This document shows positions 657-22,483 of a DNA stretch of 31,587 bases, one piece after another; position 1 is the stretch's first letter; each line of letters starts with the position of its first letter. A program made the position numbers and the translations under genes. This stretch comes from a virus: positions 1-31,587 of IMG/VR virus record IMGVR_UViG_3300050019_000099; one strand, given 5' to 3'. Under the pieces are notes generated by a model that saw only the letters and a list, made by a program, of their open reading frames with translations, ran no database searches and had not been told where the DNA came from.

Positions 657-2183
657 TTACTGCACCCTCAGGCCGACGATGGAGCTCTGCGCCGTCGGGT
701 GGTAGCACTTGAGCGTCTCGTTGACGAGCAGCGAGAACGGATAGCTTATGCCGCTGCGTGCGAGGTCCCAGTAGGTGTAGGGACGACGGACGTCGAGCGC
801 CCATCCGCGGGACTCACGCGAGTAGGCGTAGGGCACCTTCTCCGTGAGGAACAGGATGGTGCCGTCGGGGAACTCGGGATGCGCCCAGAAGTCGATCGAG
901 GGCTGCTGGCCGTCCAGCATGCTCCCGGCGAACTTGTTGACGTACCCACCGACGTACGCACCACCGACGAACCGGCCGCGCTCGGCGGTCAGATCGATGC
1001 GGTTGGTGAAGCCGCTGTTGATGCCCATGAGGGCGTTGGAGACGGCCGCGATGGTGTTCGCAGAGCCGACACCCAGTGTCGGGCTGATCTTGAGGCTCGA
1101 CCACAGGTTCTGCAGGATGTAGTCGAACTCGGCAATCCCTGAGCCTGTGGGGGTCAGGATGTTGCCGGCGGCGTTGTAGGTGAAGTGGTTCTGGGACAGG
1201 GCCTTGCCGTAGATCGTGTTCTTCTGCGACCAGGCGATGTAGCCCTCGTACTGGTTGGCGTTGGCCGTGCCGTCCGCCGTGCCGTGCGTCGCGCCGCTGG
1301 CCGCTCCACCGTAGACCTGACATGCGGTCTCGGTGATGTACGTCTGGCCGGTCGGGACGGTCCATGCGGTGCCGAGCACCGTCGAGGACGTGGACGGATG
1401 GGCGAGCTGGGTGGCAGGATCCACGAGCGCGGCAGCAGCAGCCGAGGCACCAGCGTAGATCTTGTAACCGACCGCACCGGGGACCGGGTTCCATGCGAGC
1501 TTCGCGCACAGCTGCGACGCACCGGTGTTGGAGGCGGTGATGTCCTGGCCCACGGACTCTCCGAGCTTCGCGTTGGCGATGACCGCACCCTTGACAGGGT
1601 CGGAGGTGGCGCTGGCGAGCGTGCCCTGATAGGTGAGGGCGGTGACGACGTAGTGGGCGACCGACGTGTACGAGCCGGTCCCCACGCCTGCCGCGGTGCC
1701 ATCGGAGGTACCGTCGACCAGTGCGGTGCGGTTGCCGCCGAACAGGTTCATCTCCTCGAGCCTGAACAGTGCGGAGAGCAGCGTCGCGGTCTCAGCGCCG
1801 AAGGGATCGTCAAACTCCTTCGCGGCGTCGATGGCCTCGAGGTTGACCTCACCCTTGATGGCCTGCGTCGCGTAGGGCGCCTGGAAAGTCGTGGCGTTGG
1901 CGTCCAGCGCAGAACCGACGGCGGCCTCAGCCGAGCCGAGCGCGCCGGCGAACGAGAAGCTGGACGGGAAGCCCATCATGACCTTGAAGTCGGCCGTGAG
2001 GGCGCCACGTGCGGCCGTGTCGGTCGGCGTGCGGCGCCGCAGGCCGTTGAAGAACGGGAGCATGAGCTTTGCCTGGGGCTCCAGGTTGACACCGTCGAAG
2101 CCTGAGCTCGATGCACTCAGCGCCTTCTCGATGTCCCCACCGTAGCCGAGCAGGGTGGCGAGCTTTGAGAGGTTGCCATTCAT
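657..2183 (-). CDS. Major capsid protein, HK97-like, with inserted FN3/Ig-like domain
   Basis: A 508-residue protein directly downstream of the protease-scaffold gene, the standard position of the major capsid protein. The first ~150 residues (helical start, 'EPQAKLMLPFFNGLRRRTP', 'FDDPFGAETATLLSALFRLEEMNLFGG') and the last ~200 (FWAHPEFPDGTILFLTEKVPY) resemble HK97-fold capsid proteins. Between residues ~155 and 300 lies an insertion with the fibronectin-III/Ig signature L-A-W-N-P-V-P-G-A-V-G-Y-K-I-Y (about 229-243), flanked by Thr/Ser/Gly-rich strands. Such insertions usually project from the capsid surface. The length exceeds the usual 300-400 residues because of it. The start ATG is preceded by AAAGGA at a rather long distance. 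Confidence 0.85.
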   Translation of the reverse strand: MNGNLSKLATLLGYGGDIEKALSASSSGFDGVNLEPQAKLMLPFFNGLRRRTPTDTAARGALTADFKVMMGFPSSFSFAGALGSAEAAVGSALDANATTFQAPYATQAIKGEVNLEAIDAAKEFDDPFGAETATLLSALFRLEEMNLFGGNRTALVDGTSDGTAAGVGTGSYTSVAHYVVTALTYQGTLASATSDPVKGAVIANAKLGESVGQDITASNTGASQLCAKLAWNPVPGAVGYKIYAGASAAAAALVDPATQLAHPSTSSTVLGTAWTVPTGQTYITETACQVYGGAASGATHGTADGTANANQYEGYIAWSQKNTIYGKALSQNHFTYNAAGNILTPTGSGIAEFDYILQNLWSSLKISPTLGVGSANTIAAVSNALMGINSGFTNRIDLTAERGRFVGGAYVGGYVNKFAGSMLDGQQPSIDFWAHPEFPDGTILFLTEKVPYAYSRESRGWALDVRRPYTYWDLARSGISYPFSLLVNETLKCYHPTAQSSIVGLRVQ

Positions 2184-2229: not shown

Positions 2230-3828
2230 TTACGGCCTGCGGGACAGGTGATGGCGGACGGCCTGACCCATCTGGGCCGCGACCGCCTTCATGACCGACT
2301 GCTCGGCTTCGAGCGGATCTCCGTGCGCGGCCTCGAGGGCGGCATGCTGATCGCCAGCCTCCATCGCCTTGAGCACGGGGTCCCCGGCCGCGACCATGTT
2401 CTCGGGCAGCGGCTCGGCGATCTCCTTGGACTCGGCCTTGGCGACCTCGCCACCACCGAGAAGCTCGGCGATGACAGCCTTCGCGCCAGCGGTCGCAGCA
2501 TCCTGAAGCGTGACGCCCATCGTGGCACCGGGCGTCACGGCAGGAGCATTCTCGCAGCCCGCGGGAGCACCCGGAGCGGCGGGAACCTCGGCCTTGGTGA
2601 CGGTCGAGGGGGTCGAGGTGGACGGTGTCGAGGCGGACGACGGTGTAGAGGTGGACGGGGTGGTGGTACCGGTGCTGGTGCTGGTGGTGCCAGTGGTGCT
2701 CGGAGTGCTCTTGGAGCCGAAGCGCTTCTCGAACTCGCTGCGGACGTCCTCGTCCTTGCACATCGTCACGTCGGACGGCGTGCTCGAGGATGGCGTCGAG
2801 GATGAGGGCGGCGTGCTCGAGGATGGCGTCGAGGATGAGGACGGCGTGCTCGAGGATGAGCCGGTGGACGTGCTGGTCGAGGACCCGCTCAGGGTCGAGA
2901 CCATGTCACCGACGACGGACAGGGCCTGCTGGGCCTGCGCCAGTGCATCGGGATCAGAGCCGACCGAGCTGAGAAGCGTACTGATCTGGCTGAGCGCTGA
3001 CGAGACGTCGGACCCCTTGAGGACCTCCCTCTCCTGCAGAGCCTTGGCGACCGCGACCGTCTGATCGATGGTCCCCAGCGCCTTCACGATTCCTGCGTCC
3101 ATGCCTGTTCCTTTCGCTGACTGCGGCGCTGCCGCCTTGTTGACGAACTCTCCGATCATCTCTTCAGGCGGCCCGAGAACGATCTGGTCGCCGTTGGAAC
3201 CCCATGCGCACTCGAAGGTGCGCCCGTCAGCCTCGAACCTCACGCGGTCCACAGACCAGTCCACAACCACGCCGAGGTGCGCCTTGGATACCGCGCCGGC
3301 GATCTGCTCGCCGCGCTCCTGGTAGCTCCCGGACAGGTTTCGCATGGGCGTCCTTCCTTCGGGCTCATCGAACATCTCAGCCTTGACCACTGAGATCACG
3401 GCACGGGGGTTGGCTGGTACGTCGACCAGGCTGATCTCGATGAGCTCCAGCACGTCGATCACGGTGGTGCCACCGCTGCGGTGCGAGCTCAGCGCCTTGC
3501 CGCCGATGGAGAAGCCCTTGAGGATGCCCTCCTTGACCTTCGTGAGGGCCGCTTCGCCGTCAGGGGTGTCGGAGAGGTAGACGCAGATGTCGATCGCTTG
3601 GCGGGCCTCGTCGGGCACCCACCCCTCAAGGCGACCGACGGCGATCGGCTGGTGCATCTCACGGATGCCTAGACGATCAGCGCCCTCCTCGAACGCGGCC
3701 ACGGCCACGGAGAAGGGAACCTCGTCGCCCTGCTTGTCCTCGAACGCGTCAGTGGCGCAGCCGTATACCAGCCGCTGCTCAGCGTCGAACTTGGTGATTG
3801 CGAAGCCGAACGAGACGCGGCGCTTCAC
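2230..3828 (-). CDS. Prohead protease (XkdF-like) fused to scaffold region
   Basis: I chose the GTG at 3828 (532 residues) over the GTG at 3843 because AAGGGGG lies 5 nt before it, whereas the upstream GTG has no SD. The N-terminal ~150 residues match the XkdF/HK97 prohead serine protease fold: 'REMHQPIAVGRLEGW' with a candidate catalytic His59, 'LKGFSIGGKA' with candidate Ser107, and 'LELIEISLVDVPANP'. A mixed middle region (~150-310) is followed by a Ser/Thr/Pro linker of ~100 residues (~315-420). The last ~110 residues are Ala/Glu-rich and helical, typical of a scaffold or delta domain. It presumably nucleates assembly of the downstream capsid protein and then cleaves itself and the scaffold. 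The linker is encoded by tandem DNA repeats. Confidence 0.85.
   Translation of the reverse strand: MKRRVSFGFAITKFDAEQRLVYGCATDAFEDKQGDEVPFSVAVAAFEEGADRLGIREMHQPIAVGRLEGWVPDEARQAIDICVYLSDTPDGEAALTKVKEGILKGFSIGGKALSSHRSGGTTVIDVLELIEISLVDVPANPRAVISVVKAEMFDEPEGRTPMRNLSGSYQERGEQIAGAVSKAHLGVVVDWSVDRVRFEADGRTFECAWGSNGDQIVLGPPEEMIGEFVNKAAAPQSAKGTGMDAGIVKALGTIDQTVAVAKALQEREVLKGSDVSSALSQISTLLSSVGSDPDALAQAQQALSVVGDMVSTLSGSSTSTSTGSSSSTPSSSSTPSSSTPPSSSTPSSSTPSDVTMCKDEDVRSEFEKRFGSKSTPSTTGTTSTSTGTTTPSTSTPSSASTPSTSTPSTVTKAEVPAAPGAPAGCENAPAVTPGATMGVTLQDAATAGAKAVIAELLGGGEVAKAESKEIAEPLPENMVAAGDPVLKAMEAGDQHAALEAAHGDPLEAEQSVMKAVAAQMGQAVRHHLSRRP
2777..2860 (-). repeat. 33-bp tandem repeat encoding the Ser/Thr/Pro linker
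   Basis: A 33-bp unit starting GGCGTGCTCGAGGATGGC occurs twice in near-perfect tandem (2777-2809 and 2810-2842), with a partial third copy to about 2860. It encodes SSSTPSSSTPP-type sequence on the minus strand. A second low-complexity block at about 2605-2700 encodes further STPST/TGTTST sequence. The array probably changes length by slippage or recombination. Confidence 0.75.
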
Positions 3829-3850
3829 GGCGACCCCCTTCACCGCGAAG

Positions 3851-4310: not shown

Positions 4311-4486
4311 CTGTAGCGCCTCACGAACCCATGCCCTGGCACCGGCCAGTCGTGACAGACCCACGGAGGTGTAGGGTCACCATCAAGGTAGAGAGTGGGC
4401 GACTTAGGTGTCCTCTTTCCGCGTGCCAGCAGAGCGAATGCCACCGCTCCTGTAACTGTCAGGATCGCCAACAGCACTTCACTCAT
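4307..4486 (-). CDS. Small single-pass membrane protein
   Basis: A 59-residue protein starting MSEVLLAILTVTGAVAFALLARGKR. An N-terminal hydrophobic helix (residues ~4-20) is followed by a basic stop-transfer segment and a Trp/Pro-rich soluble tail. It overlaps the Mu-F-like gene at its 5' end by 8 nt (ATGAGTGA) and the next gene by ATGA, so it is translationally coupled on both sides. A membrane protein is unexpected inside a head-assembly operon. Function unknown. Confidence 0.6.
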   Translation of the reverse strand: MSEVLLAILTVTGAVAFALLARGKRTPKSPTLYLDGDPTPPWVCHDWPVPGHGFVRRYR

Positions 4487-5291
4487 CGTCTTGCTCTTCC
4501 TCGGTCCCGTCAGGCAGCACGATCGTCCGCCCGCACCGACAACCGGTATGCAGTGGAGGCGTCGTAGCGGGGTCGTCCATCTGCACTTCGGTCTGGTCGA
4601 GCCCGTCGCACTCTGAGCAGACGGCTTCATCCTCAGCCGTGTCGAATATGCCCCCCGGAGCGTTTAGCTGCTGCGCGGTCATGTTCTCGGCGATCGCATT
4701 GAGGCGCGTCGTCTCAGTGATGCCCACCTGATCGGCCTTGTAGGGCGACAGGTACGGTGCGAGGCGGTTCTCGAGGTCGCCTGCGCTCATCTCCGGGTCG
4801 TGATAGTAGTTCGTGACCTCCGCCACGATCTTGCCGGTGACGGTCTGCGATATGGACTTGATGCCACCGACGTCGTGCAGCCCCTGTGCGAGCGCCGCGG
4901 CCTGGCGCGCGGCCTCACTTGCGACCGGCAGCGCCAACGCCTTTGTAACGCGGTCGAGGTTGACGTTGTAGCGCGCCAGCATCTGACGCGGGTCCAGCGG
5001 CGCCCACTTGTAGCGCTTGCCCTCGAAGAAGGCGTTGTGGCCGTTGCACACGATGATAGCCGCCTTGGCCGCACCATCGCGCACACCTGCCTCGATCGTA
5101 TCAGCGATTGCCCCGAGCACCAGCGGGTCGCGCAGCCCCCCCACGTCGCCGCCTGTGGCGCCGGGACGCGGTATCGCGGCCTTCACCTGCCGCCATGCGT
5201 CGGCGTAGGCGCGCTTGGTGGACGCGACGAACGCCGCCTCGGCCTTGGCGCATGCCTGGCGAACCTCGGGACGGTTGGAGGACAGCTTCAC
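4479..5291 (-). CDS. Phage Mu F-like / SPP1 gp7-like head morphogenesis protein
   Basis: About 270 residues from the GTG at 5291, which overlaps the upstream stop as GTGA. The N-terminal half is helical. The C-terminal half carries the Mu-F/SPP1-gp7 signature: 'VGITETTRLNAIAENMTAQQL', then a Cys pair (CSECDG) and the closing 'PPLHTGCRCGRTIVLPDG', which normally forms a Cys/His site. Family members are minor head proteins that travel with the portal and often enter the cell with the DNA. The position downstream of the portal gene fits. The acidic C-terminal tail (GTEEEQDDE) is unremarkable. Confidence 0.85.
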   Translation of the reverse strand: MKLSSNRPEVRQACAKAEAAFVASTKRAYADAWRQVKAAIPRPGATGGDVGGLRDPLVLGAIADTIEAGVRDGAAKAAIIVCNGHNAFFEGKRYKWAPLDPRQMLARYNVNLDRVTKALALPVASEAARQAAALAQGLHDVGGIKSISQTVTGKIVAEVTNYYHDPEMSAGDLENRLAPYLSPYKADQVGITETTRLNAIAENMTAQQLNAPGGIFDTAEDEAVCSECDGLDQTEVQMDDPATTPPLHTGCRCGRTIVLPDGTEEEQDDE

Positions 5292-6043
5292 CGGGGCAGC
5301 CTGTAGGCCACACGGCAGACGGAGTCGAACATCGCGAGCCACTGATTGTAATCGGCGAGTGCCCACGCATCGCCGGGCATCGGCATCATCTCAATCGCGC
5401 CGGACAGGATCTTCGTCTCGGGACTCACGAGCATGCCCGCCATGAGCACCGTGTCCTCCTTGAGGATGCCCCGCACGTCGTCCCACCCGGGCAAGTGCGG
5501 CTTCGGTGCCGATACCTCGACAGACTCCGCGACCTGCGCCTGCTCCTCAACCACCAGCGAAGCATCAGCCGGCGGATCCTTTGACACTTCTGGGCGCACG
5601 CCGTTCTCCGCCGCGTTGTGCACCTTCATGTGGCCGCCCAGCGCGTTGCCCGTCCCGAACGTCCTGTGGCGCACGCTGCACTCGTAGTCCCCGCTTGCCC
5701 CCATCGCACTCTCCTTCGCTCTGCGTGCCTTGGCCTCGCCCACCTTGCGCGAGTGGTCCTTCGCGGCGCACTCGGCGCAGCGCTGCGTGTTGTGAGCCCG
5801 CCCCGTGATGTCGCACCCGCAGTCGACGCAGAGACGTGGCTCAGGGACGACCGGCAGCTTCGGATGGCTGAACGCGTGCAGCGCCAGCTCCCTGTGCGTG
5901 GAGAAGTGCTCGTGGCACGTGGGGCACTCGAACGCGCCGAACGCACGCACCTCATCGTGCCTCGCGACGTGACGAGCCAGCGCCTCCCCGCTTGAGAAGC
6001 GGAAGTGGCAGGTAGGACACTCGTACGGAGACTCTTGGATCAC
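5288..6043 (-). CDS. Multi-C2H2 zinc-finger protein in the head operon
   Basis: A 251-residue protein from a GTG (GTGA overlap with the preceding gene; GGAGAGG upstream). Finger 1 is canonical: YECPTCHFRFSSGEALARHV.. with C9, C12, H25, H29. Finger 2 is FECPTCHEHFSTHRELALHA.. with C40, C43, H56, H60. A zinc ribbon follows with C72, C75, C89, C92, then a basic linker. Finger 3 (C122, H138, H142) has Arg where the second Cys should be, and contains NALGGHMKVH, close to the QALGGH of plant-type fingers. Residues ~150-251 are an unrelated acidic then mixed domain ending WLAMFDSVCRVAYRLPR. It is probably nucleic-acid binding; its role beside portal and Mu-F genes is unknown. Eukaryote-style finger arrays are rare in phages. 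Confidence 0.85.
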   Translation of the reverse strand: MIQESPYECPTCHFRFSSGEALARHVARHDEVRAFGAFECPTCHEHFSTHRELALHAFSHPKLPVVPEPRLCVDCGCDITGRAHNTQRCAECAAKDHSRKVGEAKARRAKESAMGASGDYECSVRHRTFGTGNALGGHMKVHNAAENGVRPEVSKDPPADASLVVEEQAQVAESVEVSAPKPHLPGWDDVRGILKEDTVLMAGMLVSPETKILSGAIEMMPMPGDAWALADYNQWLAMFDSVCRVAYRLPR

Positions 6044-6226: not shown

Positions 6227-6490
6227 CTAGGCCAGCGTGTAGCTATGCTCGAAGTTCTCCGCGGACACGTACGACGGTGCCCAGTGGTCCAGCCCGAACA
6301 CGAAGTATCCGCCGGCCTCGTGCTCGACGCGGCAGCGCTCTACATCGATCGTGGCGCGCAGGAGATACGGCCGCTGGGCCTCGATCAGAGCAACGCGCTC
6401 CTTGTTCGTCTCAGCCGAGGACAGGTCGACGCCCTCCGTGGCCGCGACCTCCTCCAGCGCCGCCGTGCTCATACGAATCAGTGGCTTCAT
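6227..6490 (-). CDS. SAP/HeH-like small protein
   Basis: An 87-residue protein whose N-terminal ~35 residues (MKPLIRMSTAALEEVAATEGVDLSSAETNKERVALIEAQ) fit the helix-extended-loop-helix pattern of SAP/HeH/Rho-N domains. The remainder contains 'GGYFVFGLDHWAPSYVSAENF' and may form a small beta domain. The SD AAGGAG overlaps the end of the portal gene. HeH/SAP domains near head genes often bind DNA or tether to other head proteins; no specific role can be assigned. Confidence 0.65.
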   Translation of the reverse strand: MKPLIRMSTAALEEVAATEGVDLSSAETNKERVALIEAQRPYLLRATIDVERCRVEHEAGGYFVFGLDHWAPSYVSAENFEHSYTLA

Positions 6491-6494
6491 CCCT

Positions 6495-8828
6495 CTACTC
6501 CTTCTCTGTCAGTTCCGACACGGTGTGATCCTCGGGCCCCGAGGTGGTCTCGGTCGTGGCCCCCGTCGCAGCCGCCGTGTCGAGCGACACGATGGCGAGC
6601 GTCCCTGTGTCCAGTATGCGGTCGAGCCTGCCCGATGCGAGCTTGGTCGCGTCGTTGCCCACCACGCGCGGCAGGTCGTCCCAGAAGCTCGTGTTGGTGC
6701 GCAACCCGTGCAGGCGCGCCATCGAATCCTTGGACAGCTCCGCGTCCCCGAACGCCGCGAGGAACGGTGAGAAAATCGGCATGTTGCGAGTCGGGAACGT
6801 GAGCCCGTTGTCGCAGAGCACCGGGCGCATCTCATCGTCGGACGCCGTGAGCCAGTTCCCGCGGTGACGGTCGATCGAGCCGTCGATGTACTCGAGGATG
6901 GCCACGCGCTCCACCCACGCGGAGGCGTACTTGTCCGCGTCGCGGGCAGGCAGGTTGTCCGAGGAGTACATCGCCACGGAGCCGATCTCACCGTTGACGG
7001 ACGCCATGTACGCGACGGGGACGCAGTAGAACTGCAGCGCGCGGTCGAGCATGTACGCCGCCTGCTCCCTGGCGCACTGAGGGCCGCCGGCCCGCTTGAC
7101 CAGCTTCGGGTTCTCGCCGGCGAGCGGCTTCCACACGCCAGGCTTCGTCGGCAGGCCGGGTGGTGAAATCGCCACGATCTGCACGTCGTTCGCATGCCCG
7201 CCCGCGGGCCAGTCCACGTCCCCTGCCTTGAGCACAGGCGCGCCGTAATACTCGTCGTCGGTGACCGCGACCCCGGTGTTCTTCTCGATGGGGTGAGGCG
7301 CCTCGACGGACTTGGATGCAGCGGGCGGTGCGACCTCGCGCCTGAGCTTGGCGATCTCCGCCCACAGCGCCTTCTCCTCCACGCTCTGGGGCGAGGACGA
7401 TGAAGACGTGGACGGCGTGCCGCTCTCGATCATCGAGCGGCCCACCTTCTCGTCCTGCGTGGTGGCAGGTGTCGTGGAGATCGCCGCATCCCCGCCCGCC
7501 TCCTCCTCGCTGTAGCCGCTCGCGAGGAATGACGTGATCGACACCGGTACGCCGTTGCGGATCACCATGAGGATGTCGCCACCCTTGACCGGCTCCTGAT
7601 CGAAGATGGAGCGCGCCTCGTTGAGGGTGATGCAGCCGTTGATGAACCACTGCACCGCCGCAGTCTGGCGCGTCGATGGGTCGATCGAGGTCGTCGGGAG
7701 CTGCAGCTCGAAGCGTACCGCCGGGTCGAGGTCCAGGCCGTGGCGTGCGGCGTTCATCGCGCCTTCGATGTAGTCCTTCAGCGGACCGAGGCCCATGCGG
7801 AAGAAGGACTGCTGGTTGAAATCCATGTACCCGGATCCGCCGAGCCCACGGCCGGGAACCTGGCCGTACTCAGAGGGCGGCACGCCGTAACACAGGCTCA
7901 CGTTGTTGAACGCCGTGGTGTAGGCATCCTTCGGGAACTCGGCCTTCTTGCCCGAGATCCACACAGCGTCCTTGCTCGGCAGGATCTGAATGCGGCGCCG
8001 CTCCTCGGGCTGGCCGTTGAGGCGCGCGTTGTAGGTGGCCGTCCACTCCCCGACCTGCTCAGGATTCATCGTGTCTTCGCCGAATCCGAGGAAGCCCTCA
8101 GGCGTGTTGCCCTCGGTGTAGTAGGCCAGCTCGAACCCCTTGATCTGTGCCAGCAGCTGCACGTCGGACCAGCAGTCCTCCATCGGCGTCATGCCGTAGG
8201 GTGCGTCGATCCACGGCTGGGCCGGATGGTAGTAGACCTCCTCGGTCGAGAACGCCTGGAATGGCGTGCCCTGTATCACCTGCTGGAACGCGGGCGAGGG
8301 CGGACGAGGCTGGCGACCGTGCACGTCCACGAGCGCGAACAGCGTTGAGCCGTTGATGCGCCGTATCTCCTGCGCGCCACGATCGATGTAGAGCGCTGCC
8401 GCGTCGAGCACGAGGCGGTCCTGCAGCACCTGCTTGACCCACACGTCCCACGGAGTCTGGCGATCGGGGCTGCTCAGCATCCACAACTCGGGATGGTCGG
8501 CGGGCACCTGCTCACCCGTGCCCACTTCCACCAGCGCCGGTTCGAAGATCATGAACTCCCGAGTGAGAAGATGGACCGCCATCTTCACCTCGGTGATGAG
8601 GCGGAACGTCTCGACCAGCGTCTGGAACGTCGTGAGCCCGTAGCCGCTACGAGGCACGATGTTCGCGTTGACGGAGGGCTTGTAATCGATCTCGCGAGGC
8701 TTGCCCTCCTCCCACGGCTGAGCGCCGGGAGAGACGGGGAGGCCCGGCCCGAAGGTCGCACCGCTCCACGCGGGCGCTCCCTGCTGGGACGCGCCGAGGG
8801 CCTTGCTCACACGCAGGATGCCGGGCAT
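6495..8828 (-). CDS. Portal protein fused to a PI3/4-kinase/HipA-like kinase domain
   Basis: A 777-residue protein, far longer than usual portals (400-520 residues). Residues ~60-440 are a phage portal: 'WDVWVKQVLQDRLVLDAAALYIDR', 'PMEDCWSDVQLLAQIKGFELAYYTEG', 'NNVSLCYGVPPSEYGQ', 'GPLKDYIEGAMN', 'NGCITLNEARSIF'. A Ser-rich linker and short helix (~465-500) lead to a C-terminal domain (~545-745) with atypical-kinase features: K567 in VWKPLAGE, E588 in CAREQAAYMLD, a catalytic loop D653-R-H-R-G-N658, and D673-N-G in the metal-binding position. This pattern resembles actinobacterial SCO1664-type proteins and PI3/4 kinases (DRHxxN then D-x-G). The start ATG has AAGGAG that overlaps the upstream stop. 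The portal function is near certain; kinase activity is inferred from conserved residues. Confidence 0.9.
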   Translation of the reverse strand: MPGILRVSKALGASQQGAPAWSGATFGPGLPVSPGAQPWEEGKPREIDYKPSVNANIVPRSGYGLTTFQTLVETFRLITEVKMAVHLLTREFMIFEPALVEVGTGEQVPADHPELWMLSSPDRQTPWDVWVKQVLQDRLVLDAAALYIDRGAQEIRRINGSTLFALVDVHGRQPRPPSPAFQQVIQGTPFQAFSTEEVYYHPAQPWIDAPYGMTPMEDCWSDVQLLAQIKGFELAYYTEGNTPEGFLGFGEDTMNPEQVGEWTATYNARLNGQPEERRRIQILPSKDAVWISGKKAEFPKDAYTTAFNNVSLCYGVPPSEYGQVPGRGLGGSGYMDFNQQSFFRMGLGPLKDYIEGAMNAARHGLDLDPAVRFELQLPTTSIDPSTRQTAAVQWFINGCITLNEARSIFDQEPVKGGDILMVIRNGVPVSITSFLASGYSEEEAGGDAAISTTPATTQDEKVGRSMIESGTPSTSSSSSPQSVEEKALWAEIAKLRREVAPPAASKSVEAPHPIEKNTGVAVTDDEYYGAPVLKAGDVDWPAGGHANDVQIVAISPPGLPTKPGVWKPLAGENPKLVKRAGGPQCAREQAAYMLDRALQFYCVPVAYMASVNGEIGSVAMYSSDNLPARDADKYASAWVERVAILEYIDGSIDRHRGNWLTASDDEMRPVLCDNGLTFPTRNMPIFSPFLAAFGDAELSKDSMARLHGLRTNTSFWDDLPRVVGNDATKLASGRLDRILDTGTLAIVSLDTAAATGATTETTSGPEDHTVSELTEKE

Positions 8829-8838
8829 GCCGTGCTCC

Positions 8839-9012
8839 TTACATCTCGAGCCGCTTGGACTCCGCGATGATCTCGCGGAACATGCGCCGCCGTTCTATCC
8901 TGCTCATGTGAGCAGACTTCATCGTTTGGTCGAGCACCGCGAGCGCCACCAGGACGCGCTTACGGGAGCGCAGCGTGCGGCGAGCCCTCAGGTACGTACG
9001 CAGCCTCTTCAT
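8839..9012 (-). CDS. Small very basic protein (57 aa)
   Basis: Start ATG at 9012 overlaps the upstream stop as ATGA. The product MKRLRTYLRARRTLRSRKR... has about ten Arg/Lys in the first 20 residues and then a helical segment ending ESKRLEM. It probably binds nucleic acid or an acidic protein. It sits directly before the portal gene, with its stop overlapping the portal SD. No family recognised. Confidence 0.6.
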   Translation of the reverse strand: MKRLRTYLRARRTLRSRKRVLVALAVLDQTMKSAHMSRIERRRMFREIIAESKRLEM

Positions 9013-9547: not shown

Positions 9548-9828
9548 GCCCCGCTCCTTCCCCCTGCATTGTCGGCGCCATCGTACCCCTTCGAGCGACG
9601 TCGGAACATGAACATACCTGGCGAGAGCCCGGCCCACGCACACAGCGCCGCGAAGTTCTCGATGTCCGTGTTCCGACCGCTCCTCAGTCGGCAGAGCGTG
9701 GTGTGGGAGATGCCGGACTGCCTCGCCACGTCCTGCCACAGCGCTCCGCGACTGCGACGCACCTCGTCGAGCGCCGCCACGAACGCATCATGAGCGAAAC
9801 CACCAGCCCTGTCGGGTGATGCGATCAC
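9544..9828 (-). CDS. XRE-type helix-turn-helix protein between terminase and portal
   Basis: A 94-residue protein. I prefer the GTG at 9828, which overlaps the terminase stop as GTGA and has a GGGGGG tract upstream; an ATG at 9867 lacks an SD. Residues ~15-70 form an XRE-like domain: 'VAALDEVRRSRGALWQDVARQSGISHTTLCRLRSGRNTDIENFAALCAWAGLSPGMFM', with the recognition helix at about SHTTLCRLRSG. A regulator of this kind is usually in an immunity or early region, so its location inside the packaging operon is unusual. It may regulate late genes or the host. Confidence 0.8.
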   Translation of the reverse strand: MIASPDRAGGFAHDAFVAALDEVRRSRGALWQDVARQSGISHTTLCRLRSGRNTDIENFAALCAWAGLSPGMFMFRRRSKGYDGADNAGGRSGA

Positions 9829-11405
9829 ACGACCCCCCGATATGCGCGGATGCTCTCTGTCGTCCATGTGCGGGTGAGGCGGAACAGCGCCTGCGTACAG
9901 GCGTCTACCTGGTCGTCGTTGGCTCCGAAGGGGAACCGCGAGCACTCGAACACGAACTCCGCCACCCACGGTGCGATCGTCTCATCGGGAAGATACACGT
10001 TACCAGCCTCGATCGTCGGCGTCACGGCGGCCGCCCTCGCCTCCTTGCTCCCCTTCGGCGTGACCGCCTTGATGCCTGCGATCTCACGGCGCAGCTCGGA
10101 GATCACCGCGGGCCCGTTCGCGGCGTCCTCCACGAGCTTCAGCAGCGCCTGCGGCCACTTGGAGCTCAGCAGCCGCACGAGGCGGATGGTGGCAGGGAAG
10201 TCGGCGCGCTGGCGCACTTGGTCCAGCAGGTACTTCTCGCTCCCCTTCAGTCCCCACACCTGCCCCACCACGAAGTCAGAGGTCTTGGCGTCCTTGAACG
10301 CCATATCCCAAGATTGGATGATCTCGTCGAACTGCTCCGGGTCCGGCGGCTCGTGGTAGAACTGCCACCACGAGGTCTGGAACATCGCGCCCTCGGCCGG
10401 CGCGGGCTCCTGCTGGTACTGCGCCCCGAAGTCGCGGGATCCGAGAGCCACGTGCAGGCTCGACAGCTCCTTCTCGCCCTCGCGCTCAGGCCACAGCAGG
10501 TCGCCGTGGCACTTGATGGCGCCGCCGGGCAGCACCTCGAACCCGCCGCCGCGGCGATTCACCACACGCCCTGAGCGAGGGAACACGATGCGCTCGTCGG
10601 ACACCGCTATCGACGGTAGGCACAGATGCACCCACTCGTGCAGTATGTCGCGCTTGAGCACGTGCCCGGTAGGGTCGTCGTCATGCAGGCGCTGCATCAC
10701 CATCACGATGATGCCCTCAGCCTTGTTGTTGAGGCGGGACGGAAGGTCGCGGTCCATGAACTCGTTAGCCGACGCCCTGTCCGCATCCGAGTACACCTCC
10801 GACGGGTTGACCGGGTCGTCGATGTCGATCACGTCGCCGCCCTTGCCGAGCATGGTCGACCCCACCGACCCGGAGATCATCGTGCCGGAGCAGGTGTTCT
10901 CGTACTGCGTCTTGAGGTTCTGATCGTGCGCCAACACTATCTGCGGCCAGTTGGACTGGTACCACGACGACTCGATGATGCGGCGGCGCAGGACGCTGTG
11001 GTCGGTGGACAGGCTCGAGGCGTACGAGGCGAACAGGTAGCGACGCGTCGGGCGGACTATCCACTCCCAGCACGGCCACATGACCGTGACCAGCAGGCTC
11101 TTCATGGAGCGGGGCGGAATGTTGATGATGAGGCGCCGGATATCGCAGTACGTCAGGCACTCGAGGTACTCGCACAGCAGATCGATGTGCCAGTTCCACA
11201 GCAGCGGCGTGGAGGGCTCGACGATGTGCCATGCCTGGCGGACGAACTCAGCGAACGATACCTCAGCGCTTGCGCGGTCTCGGCGCCTTGCGAGCTCGCC
11301 CGTCAGTAGGGCCAGCCGTCCCACCTGATCCGAGTCGCCACTCGGCGAGGATGGACTCGGCCTCTGCGACGATGTCTTCCGTGGACCGGCTTTCGAGGTC
11401 GCCAT
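9825..11405 (-). CDS. terL: Terminase large subunit
   Basis: A 526-residue ATPase-nuclease motor. The ATPase domain has 'RLIINIPPRSMKSLLVTVMWPCW' with a Walker-A-like P97-P-R-S-M-K102-S and a Walker B at V192-I-D-I-D-D197. A coupling-like 'MVMQRLHDDDPTGHVL' follows. The RNase-H-type nuclease domain has D367 (SWDMAFKD), E426-D427 (LVEDAANG) and D497-D498-x-x-D501 (FGANDDQVDA). Family, order and length fit. The ATG at 11405 makes an unusually long 143-nt overlap with the small-subunit gene; a GTG at 11324 is an alternative that would leave all ATPase motifs intact. Confidence 0.96.
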   Translation of the reverse strand: MATSKAGPRKTSSQRPSPSSPSGDSDQVGRLALLTGELARRRDRASAEVSFAEFVRQAWHIVEPSTPLLWNWHIDLLCEYLECLTYCDIRRLIINIPPRSMKSLLVTVMWPCWEWIVRPTRRYLFASYASSLSTDHSVLRRRIIESSWYQSNWPQIVLAHDQNLKTQYENTCSGTMISGSVGSTMLGKGGDVIDIDDPVNPSEVYSDADRASANEFMDRDLPSRLNNKAEGIIVMVMQRLHDDDPTGHVLKRDILHEWVHLCLPSIAVSDERIVFPRSGRVVNRRGGGFEVLPGGAIKCHGDLLWPEREGEKELSSLHVALGSRDFGAQYQQEPAPAEGAMFQTSWWQFYHEPPDPEQFDEIIQSWDMAFKDAKTSDFVVGQVWGLKGSEKYLLDQVRQRADFPATIRLVRLLSSKWPQALLKLVEDAANGPAVISELRREIAGIKAVTPKGSKEARAAAVTPTIEAGNVYLPDETIAPWVAEFVFECSRFPFGANDDQVDACTQALFRLTRTWTTESIRAYRGVV

Positions 11406-21961: not shown

Positions 21962-22483
21962 CTAGTCCTCCTTGGTTGCTTTGGTATTCATGACCACGAT
22001 CCTGAGCGCCGCAAGCAGCGATGCTTCTTGCCCTTCGTTGATCTTCGCACCCGCGAGGTTCGCACGCGCGAGGTCCGCACCCGCGAGGTTCGCACGCGCG
22101 AGGTCCGCACCCACGAGGCTCGCACGCGCGAGGTCCGCACCCGCGAGGTACGCACCCGCGAGGTTCGCACGCGCGAGGTCCGCACCCGCGAGGTTCGCAC
22201 GCGCGAGGTCCGCACCCACGAGGCTCGCACGCGCGAGGTTCGCACCCGCGAGGTTCGCACGCGCGAGGTCCGCACCCGCGAGGTCCGCACCCGCGAGGTC
22301 CGCACCCGCGAGGTCCGCACCCACGAGGTACGCACCCACGAGGTTCGCACCCACGAGGTCCGCACCCACGAGGTACGCACCCGCGAGGTACGCACGCGCG
22401 AGGTACGCACGCGAACCCCCATCTTTGCCGTGACGCCATTTCACGTGCGCCGCTAGGATGAGGTCCAGGTCCTTCTTCTCCAT
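21962..22483 (-). CDS. Pentapeptide-repeat protein
   Basis: 173 residues from an ATG with AAGGAGGAG upstream. A short N-terminal helix (MEKKDLDLILAAHVKWRHGKDGG) leads into 24 uninterrupted pentapeptides of A-(D/N/Y/S)-L-x-(G/R) type (residues 26-145), then a C-terminal helix (EGQEASLLAALRIVVMNTKAT). Such repeats form a right-handed quadrilateral beta-helix. Some members mimic DNA and inhibit gyrase (MfpA/Qnr), but this one is more Ala-rich and uniform. The role in the phage is unknown. Confidence 0.9.
   Translation of the reverse strand: MEKKDLDLILAAHVKWRHGKDGGSRAYLARAYLAGAYLVGADLVGANLVGAYLVGADLAGADLAGADLAGADLARANLAGANLARASLVGADLARANLAGADLARANLAGAYLAGADLARASLVGADLARANLAGADLARANLAGAKINEGQEASLLAALRIVVMNTKATKED
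22049..22408. repeat. 15-bp tandem repeats with 105-bp higher-order duplication
   Basis: 24 copies of a 15-bp unit like GCACCCGCGAGGTCC encode the pentapeptides. The blocks 22049-22123 and 22154-22228 are identical over 75 bp, exactly 105 bp (7 units) apart. The next 30 bp differ at only two positions. This shows recent expansion by a 7-unit duplication. The array has no stop codons in at least five of six frames. Confidence 0.9.

Follow-up and report, generated by a model that had tools for sequence, protein, structure and literature searches.

A PI4KII/Fam20-like kinase domain fused to the HK97-type portal protein in an environmental phage lineage

The DNA analysed here (referred to as the window in the rest of the text) is a 31,587-base IMG/VR virus record from a soil phage. 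Its minus strand encodes, in this order, a terminase, a portal protein carrying a C-terminal kinase domain, a zinc-finger protein, a MuF-like protein, an S78 protease and a probable capsid protein (Table 1), the portal-kinase gene lying between the terminase and protease genes in the packaging operon. The first-pass annotation of this DNA had delimited the ORF exactly (6495-8828) but had given no strand, which is minus. The gene starts with an ATG codon, and GC3 stays between 0.83 and 0.95 along the whole ORF, including the linker and the kinase domain.

Table 1. Coordinates of the portal-kinase gene, its parts and its neighbours in the window.
Feature	Position	Strand	Remarks
Portal-kinase fusion gene	6495..8828	minus	777 aa, single uninterrupted frame
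Ribosome-binding site AAGGAG	8835..8840	minus	7-12 nt 5′ of ATG
HK97-type portal core, residues ~60-440	7509..8651	minus	PF04860 4.9e-13; PHROG_2662 1.3e-29; model match to solved portals
Linker, residues ~431-515	7284..7538	minus	Ser/Thr-rich: 26% S+T, run of 7
Kinase domain, residues ~516-750	6579..7283	minus	PI4KII/Fam20-like fold
K567, ATP-binding lysine in KPxxGE motif	7128..7130	minus	invariant in 15 aligned fusions; kept in 22/24
E588, proposed salt-bridge glutamate	7065..7067	minus	invariant in 15 fusions; replaced by A or D in some outliers
Catalytic loop D653-R-H-R-G-N658	6855..6872	minus	D653, R654 and N658 invariant in 15 fusions
D673-N-G, metal-binding Asp motif	6804..6812	minus	invariant in 15 fusions
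Terminase large subunit, upstream neighbour	9825..11405	minus	up to 41% identity to phage terminases
C2H2 zinc-finger protein	5288..6043	minus	multiple fingers, PF13912 1.6e-10; flanked by portal and MuF in head operon
Separate MuF-like head protein	4479..5366	minus	PF04233 2.8e-6, just below cut-off
Prohead protease S78, C-terminal part Ser-rich	2230..3843	minus	PF04586 2.3e-6, above cut-off
Probable major capsid protein	657..2183	minus	position only; no Pfam match

The window also contains a perfect 57-bp inverted repeat with sharp ends (6315-6371 and 8360-8416), the two copies of which are about 2 kb apart. The repeat corresponds to portal codons ~138-157, the reversed copy of which lies in the non-coding stretch that follows the portal gene, and was also found, with one mismatch, in a second contig (see below). 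It could permit inversion, fold into a hairpin between distant parts of the mRNA or be the scar of a recombination event. At 22046-22410 lie 24 copies of a 15-bp unit (88% match), within an ORF that reads (P-R-[GA]-C-[GEV])n.

The portal core that the first-pass annotation had placed at residues ~60-440 was recovered by profile searches. Pfam Phage_portal (PF04860) covers residues 105-408 with a score of 49.4 bits against a cut-off of 39.1 (4.9e-13), PHROG portal families provided a further match (1.3e-29), and the portal part of a full-length structure model resembles the solved portals of phage 812, HK97 and a gene transfer agent. The full-length model (pLDDT 65.5, pTM 0.41) is poorer than the kinase-profile model described below, and its linker, for which pLDDT is mostly <50, is predicted to be disordered. 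The Ser-rich linker between portal and kinase is present in the window as claimed (26% S+T). However, the S+T share of the linkers varies from 7 to 35% across 15 fusions, most of which lack any S/T run longer than 3. Since the linker is not consistently rich in Ser/Thr, the earlier argument that these tracts are the obvious kinase substrate fails. A short segment, [DE]xxxAxx[ML][IL]xxG, located just after the portal crown (residues ~458-472 of the window protein), is kept in most fusions despite their divergent linkers and may represent either a protease site or a helix of the crown. Potential internal start codons for a kinase-only product are present in the linker (GTG462, ATG466 and GTG483), none of them with a clear ribosome-binding site.

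Queried as a single sequence, the C-terminal part of the protein gave no match in 50,697 phage records, only three insignificant matches in plasmids, only the phage's own contig in IMG/VR and no confirmed match in bacterial and archaeal species genomes. The window sequence alone matches PI3_PI4_kinase (PF00454) at 0.0056 (17.1 bits, below the cut-off of 27.1) and the SCO1664 family (TIGR03843) at 1.2e-6 in two colinear stretches (28.1 bits against a cut-off of 172.4). A DNA scan of IMG/VR for the catalytic loop D-R-H-x-G-N-W returned 44 loci, the majority of them encoding this type of domain, and 31 phage sequences from these loci were used to build a profile (A4). Compared with the PDB, A4 matched human PI4K type II (2e-14), Fam20 (5e-8 to 9e-5), VPS34 (2e-5) and CtkA (2e-4). 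The AlphaFold2 model of A4 (pLDDT 87.8, pTM 0.84) contains a C-lobe (helices 162-228), and a Foldseek search with this model ranked PI4KII first (2.5e-8), followed by Fam20, VPS34 and CtkA; the C-terminal part of the full-length model matches PI4KII as well. Identity to the solved cellular enzymes PI4KII, Fam20 and CtkA in structural alignments is 12-19%. A profile made of 25 distant phage kinases, without the window and its close relatives, recovered the window protein at E=3.2e-25 (residues 541-686) and gave no other match among 4,310 sequences, reversed decoys included. Structure matches in viral databases carry portal, ADP-ribosyltransferase and PI3K/PI4K titles, one of them being an ADP-ribosyltransferase entry of Mycobacterium phage Onyinye, and the public entry A0A6J5S481, titled ‘Phage portal protein, HK97’, matches the same fold. 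Searched as an alignment, the motif was confirmed at 33-43 viral loci and at 2 in species genomes, a ratio that is only indicative as the patterns differed slightly.

The catalytic K, the DRHxxN loop and the D-x-G of PI3/PI4-kinases are all found in the window domain, and K567, E588, D653-R-H-R-G-N658 and D673-N-G occupy the positions that had been claimed for them. The proposed assignment to a PI3/4-kinase/HipA/SCO1664-like class held in part: PI4KII is the nearest fold, but HipA is absent from the best 50 structural and the best 60 profile matches, in which CtkA is present, and SCO1664 remains far below its cut-off. Many distant phage relatives of the kinase exceed the PF00454 cut-off; because the window domain lies below it, we refer to this domain as PI4KII/Fam20-like and not as a PF00454 member. 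Based on profiles and structure models, we consider the kinase fold of the C-terminal domain to be settled, while its catalytic activity is a prediction.

The same gene was found in a second IMG/VR contig, which differs by only 4 SNPs over 12.3 kb. When a close kinase alignment was used as the query, 17 further loci of the clade were found, most of them with portal and kinase in one ORF. A first portal alignment had yielded 80 portal relatives, none of which but the window had a kinase, as its pattern had missed the right lineage. As a kinase-free check, we searched with the portal half only (portal alignment A7). All 19 uncut relatives recovered in this way have a kinase domain, which is fused to the portal in 17, split from it in one and encoded by a separate gene in one; a further portal of the lineage, cut off by a contig end, was left out of this count. 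In L225 (L174/L225), a frameshift inside a 2H domain separates portal-2H from 2H-kinase. L226 is a natural un-fused relative, in which the portal lacks a kinase and the kinase is a stand-alone gene of 254 residues (6977-7738) located 1.4 kb downstream. Altogether, portal and kinase share one frame in 20 distinct contigs, i.e. the 17 above, L164, L176 and the window. The frameshift in L174/L225 indicates that assembly or sequencing errors do happen at such genes, and an error of this kind could in principle have joined two genes in the window. We regard the probability of this as next to nil, as the gene has no internal stop, codon bias is unbroken through the linker, and the same fusion occurs in about 20 distinct contigs from many metagenomes, so that the relatives already refute it. 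The near-identical contig and some 19 divergent ones thus bear out the earlier view of a true fusion.

Across 15 aligned fusions, K567, E572, R587, E588, D653, R654, N658 and D673-N-G are invariant, and in a wider set K567, D653, N658 and D673 are all kept in 22 of 24 relatives. L216 (3791-5995) and L222 (3812-6022) encode pseudokinases on the same portal, which have lost the ATP lysine, the DRHxxN loop and the DNG motif and have kept the fold signal. Such proteins would be expected if the domain were a structural part of the crown or a pseudokinase, its fold being kept for capsid or DNA packing and not for catalysis. Yet the retention of K, D, N and D in nearly all relatives, together with a kinase dN/dS of 0.12-0.39 where measurable, makes this explanation very unlikely.

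Two loci of the set, L177 (5200-6273) and L179 (5280-5702), have identical portals and are 100% identical over 4.3 kb downstream, whereas their kinases differ over the last ~135 residues, a segment that begins shortly ahead of the catalytic loop. In one of the two, an HNH endonuclease-like ORF directly follows the changed segment. A polymorphic-toxin-like cassette exchange was considered, but the adjoining HNH ORF makes homing with co-conversion likelier, and this is the probable origin of the difference.

The same kinase class is joined to several other head proteins. These include Mu-type portals (L131 and L142, 1e-57), a lambda-type portal (L122, a weak match at 7.8e-7, just below the cut-off), an HK97 portal with MuF following (L124), MuF proteins at six loci (L129, L133, L138, L151, L153 and L156), MuF2 (L118) and head-maturation-protease-like proteins (L128 and L136). 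Within the window's portal lineage, the domains are arranged as portal-2H-kinase (L166 and L178), portal-kinase-2H (L218) or portal-kinase-MuF (L171), and L168 and L219 have uncharacterised C-terminal extensions beyond portal-kinase. By eye, the C-terminal part of L219 (3848-7030) contains an HNHPGGS motif and appears JAB/RadC-like. The slot behind the crown is filled by NUDIX in the related portal of Arthrobacter phage Sonali and in L229 and L230, two more distant portals with the same core, in which it takes the kinase's place. L045 (3929-6952) has the order portal-Acb1-MuF, the anti-CBASS protein Acb1 being identified by Pfam at 7.9e-38, and L066 (170-2557) combines a portal with a pesticin/phage-lysozyme-like domain (1.5e-37). 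MuF was found in 24 of 51 related portals scanned, and the slot may hold MuF alone. Both the head carriers and the partner domains are therefore exchangeable. In a kinase tree, the HK97-portal fusions of the window's lineage form a single clade (support 100/100) and the other head fusions fall elsewhere, from which we infer that this kinase class became fused to head proteins more than once; the deeper branches of the tree are long and uncertain.

Enzymes fused to portal or MuF proteins have been proposed to be packaged, injected and to act early on the host, and the portal fusions surveyed by Iyer and colleagues are those with PBECR, 2H, InPase, NUDIX and ART (PMC5512222; PMC9503650). Like the polyvalent head proteins defined in 2017, the window fusion places an enzyme on a portal in a head-packaging operon and belongs to a set of head fusions with varied partner domains (2H, NUDIX, ART, MuF). 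The kinases of that survey belong to a Ser/Thr/Tyr group that has lost the C-terminal subdomain and comes mostly from Verrucomicrobia-Chlamydia and Bacteroidetes (pro)phages, and its text mentions neither PI3 nor HipA (PMC5512222); the window kinase, in contrast, is PI4KII/Fam20-like and its C-lobe is intact. In Arthrobacter phages Sonali and Mufasa8, the crown of a related HK97-type portal is likewise followed by an enzyme, but this is a NUDIX domain with MuF fused, whereas the window has a kinase and encodes MuF as a separate gene. In ‘Gratiaviridae’, a kinase gene likewise lies in the head module, between the portal and capsid genes, but it is a separate gene of the HipA family (PMC8008677). 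The same kinase class matched gp54 of Mycobacterium phage McProf, a minor capsid-ART fusion, and gp16 of halovirus HCTV-6 (‘phosphatidylinositol kinase’), both in or next to head genes; unlike the window, neither is a portal fusion, and their similarity is weak, at 31-34% across a portion of the domain. PI4-kinase type II, Fam20 and CtkA, which have the fold and catalytic motifs in common with the window kinase, are cellular enzymes. In the open-access literature, we found no paper describing a portal-kinase fusion or this kinase class on a portal, in agreement with the first-pass annotation; the fusion is nevertheless no one-off, as a whole portal lineage has it. Enzymes on portals were already known, and it is the kinase class that we did not find described among polyvalent head proteins.

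Given the published proposal of injected portal and MuF enzymes and the counter-defence-type partners, Acb1 and 2H above all, we favour, at slightly better than an even chance, an effector kinase that the virion carries in the manner of polyvalent head proteins and that is used on the host at the start of infection. Each portal subunit would bear the kinase on a flexible linker at its C-terminal crown end and, by comparison with HK97-type portals, twelve copies would lie inside the head around the crown. The kinase would be packed with the DNA, in a position that other phages use for different cargo (NUDIX, Acb1, 2H, ART or lysozyme-like domains). Once infection begins, the kinase would phosphorylate a host molecule and thereby favour takeover or blunt defence. 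We know of no portal that is ejected or leaves the head; it must therefore be assumed either that a prohead-protease cut in the linker would let the kinase reach the cytoplasm or that the kinase would act from the head at the entry site. We infer the capsid position, the activity and the early action of the kinase. L216 and L222, in which the domain is kept without its catalytic residues, speak against an effector.

Fam20 and CtkA are protein kinases, and the substrate may for this reason be a protein, which seems most likely; it may be a lipid because PI4KII is the nearest fold, and a small molecule is also conceivable. A phosphoinositide or other membrane-directed lipid kinase working at the entry site, like its closest structural relative, would agree with PI4KII alpha/beta being the best profile and fold matches. 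We consider it quite unlikely, since the superfamily also includes protein kinases and Fam20 and CtkA match too.

The main rival to an effector role, already raised in the first-pass annotation, is a kinase that phosphorylates head proteins, e.g. the portal, the scaffold-protease or the capsid protein, during assembly or maturation. The kinase is located in the portal and no uncut member of the portal lineage lacks it, it remains close to the portal as a separate gene in L226, and HCTV-6 has a related kinase gene inside its head module; its almost constant occurrence within a single portal lineage might also reflect a role in assembly. On the other hand, the S/T tracts are not conserved together with the kinase, the slot of sister portals holds enzymes without obvious use in assembly (Acb1, NUDIX), and the same kinase class sits on unrelated head carriers. 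We therefore judge a role in morphogenesis unlikely and retain the host-directed effector as the preferred reading.

More broadly, we tentatively suggest, at somewhat less than an even chance, that these proteins represent a new class of PI4KII/Fam20-like kinases that travel in the virion, attached to several unrelated proteins of the head interior (portals of three types, MuF and protease). Such kinases would enter the host by themselves or together with anti-defence enzymes and phosphorylate a target there within the first minutes, and the portal crown would act as a dodecameric rack for this cargo. For direct tests, the lineage provides aligned sequences, active-site residues and naturally occurring pseudokinases. 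The portal is usually seen as nothing but a gate for DNA, yet in environmental phages it repeatedly serves as a mounting point for enzymes, and a kinase class is now added to the list of these enzymes. Should the kinase indeed be active inside the host, it would parallel the T7 kinase, but as an enzyme that arrives with the virion and is at work before any phage gene expression.
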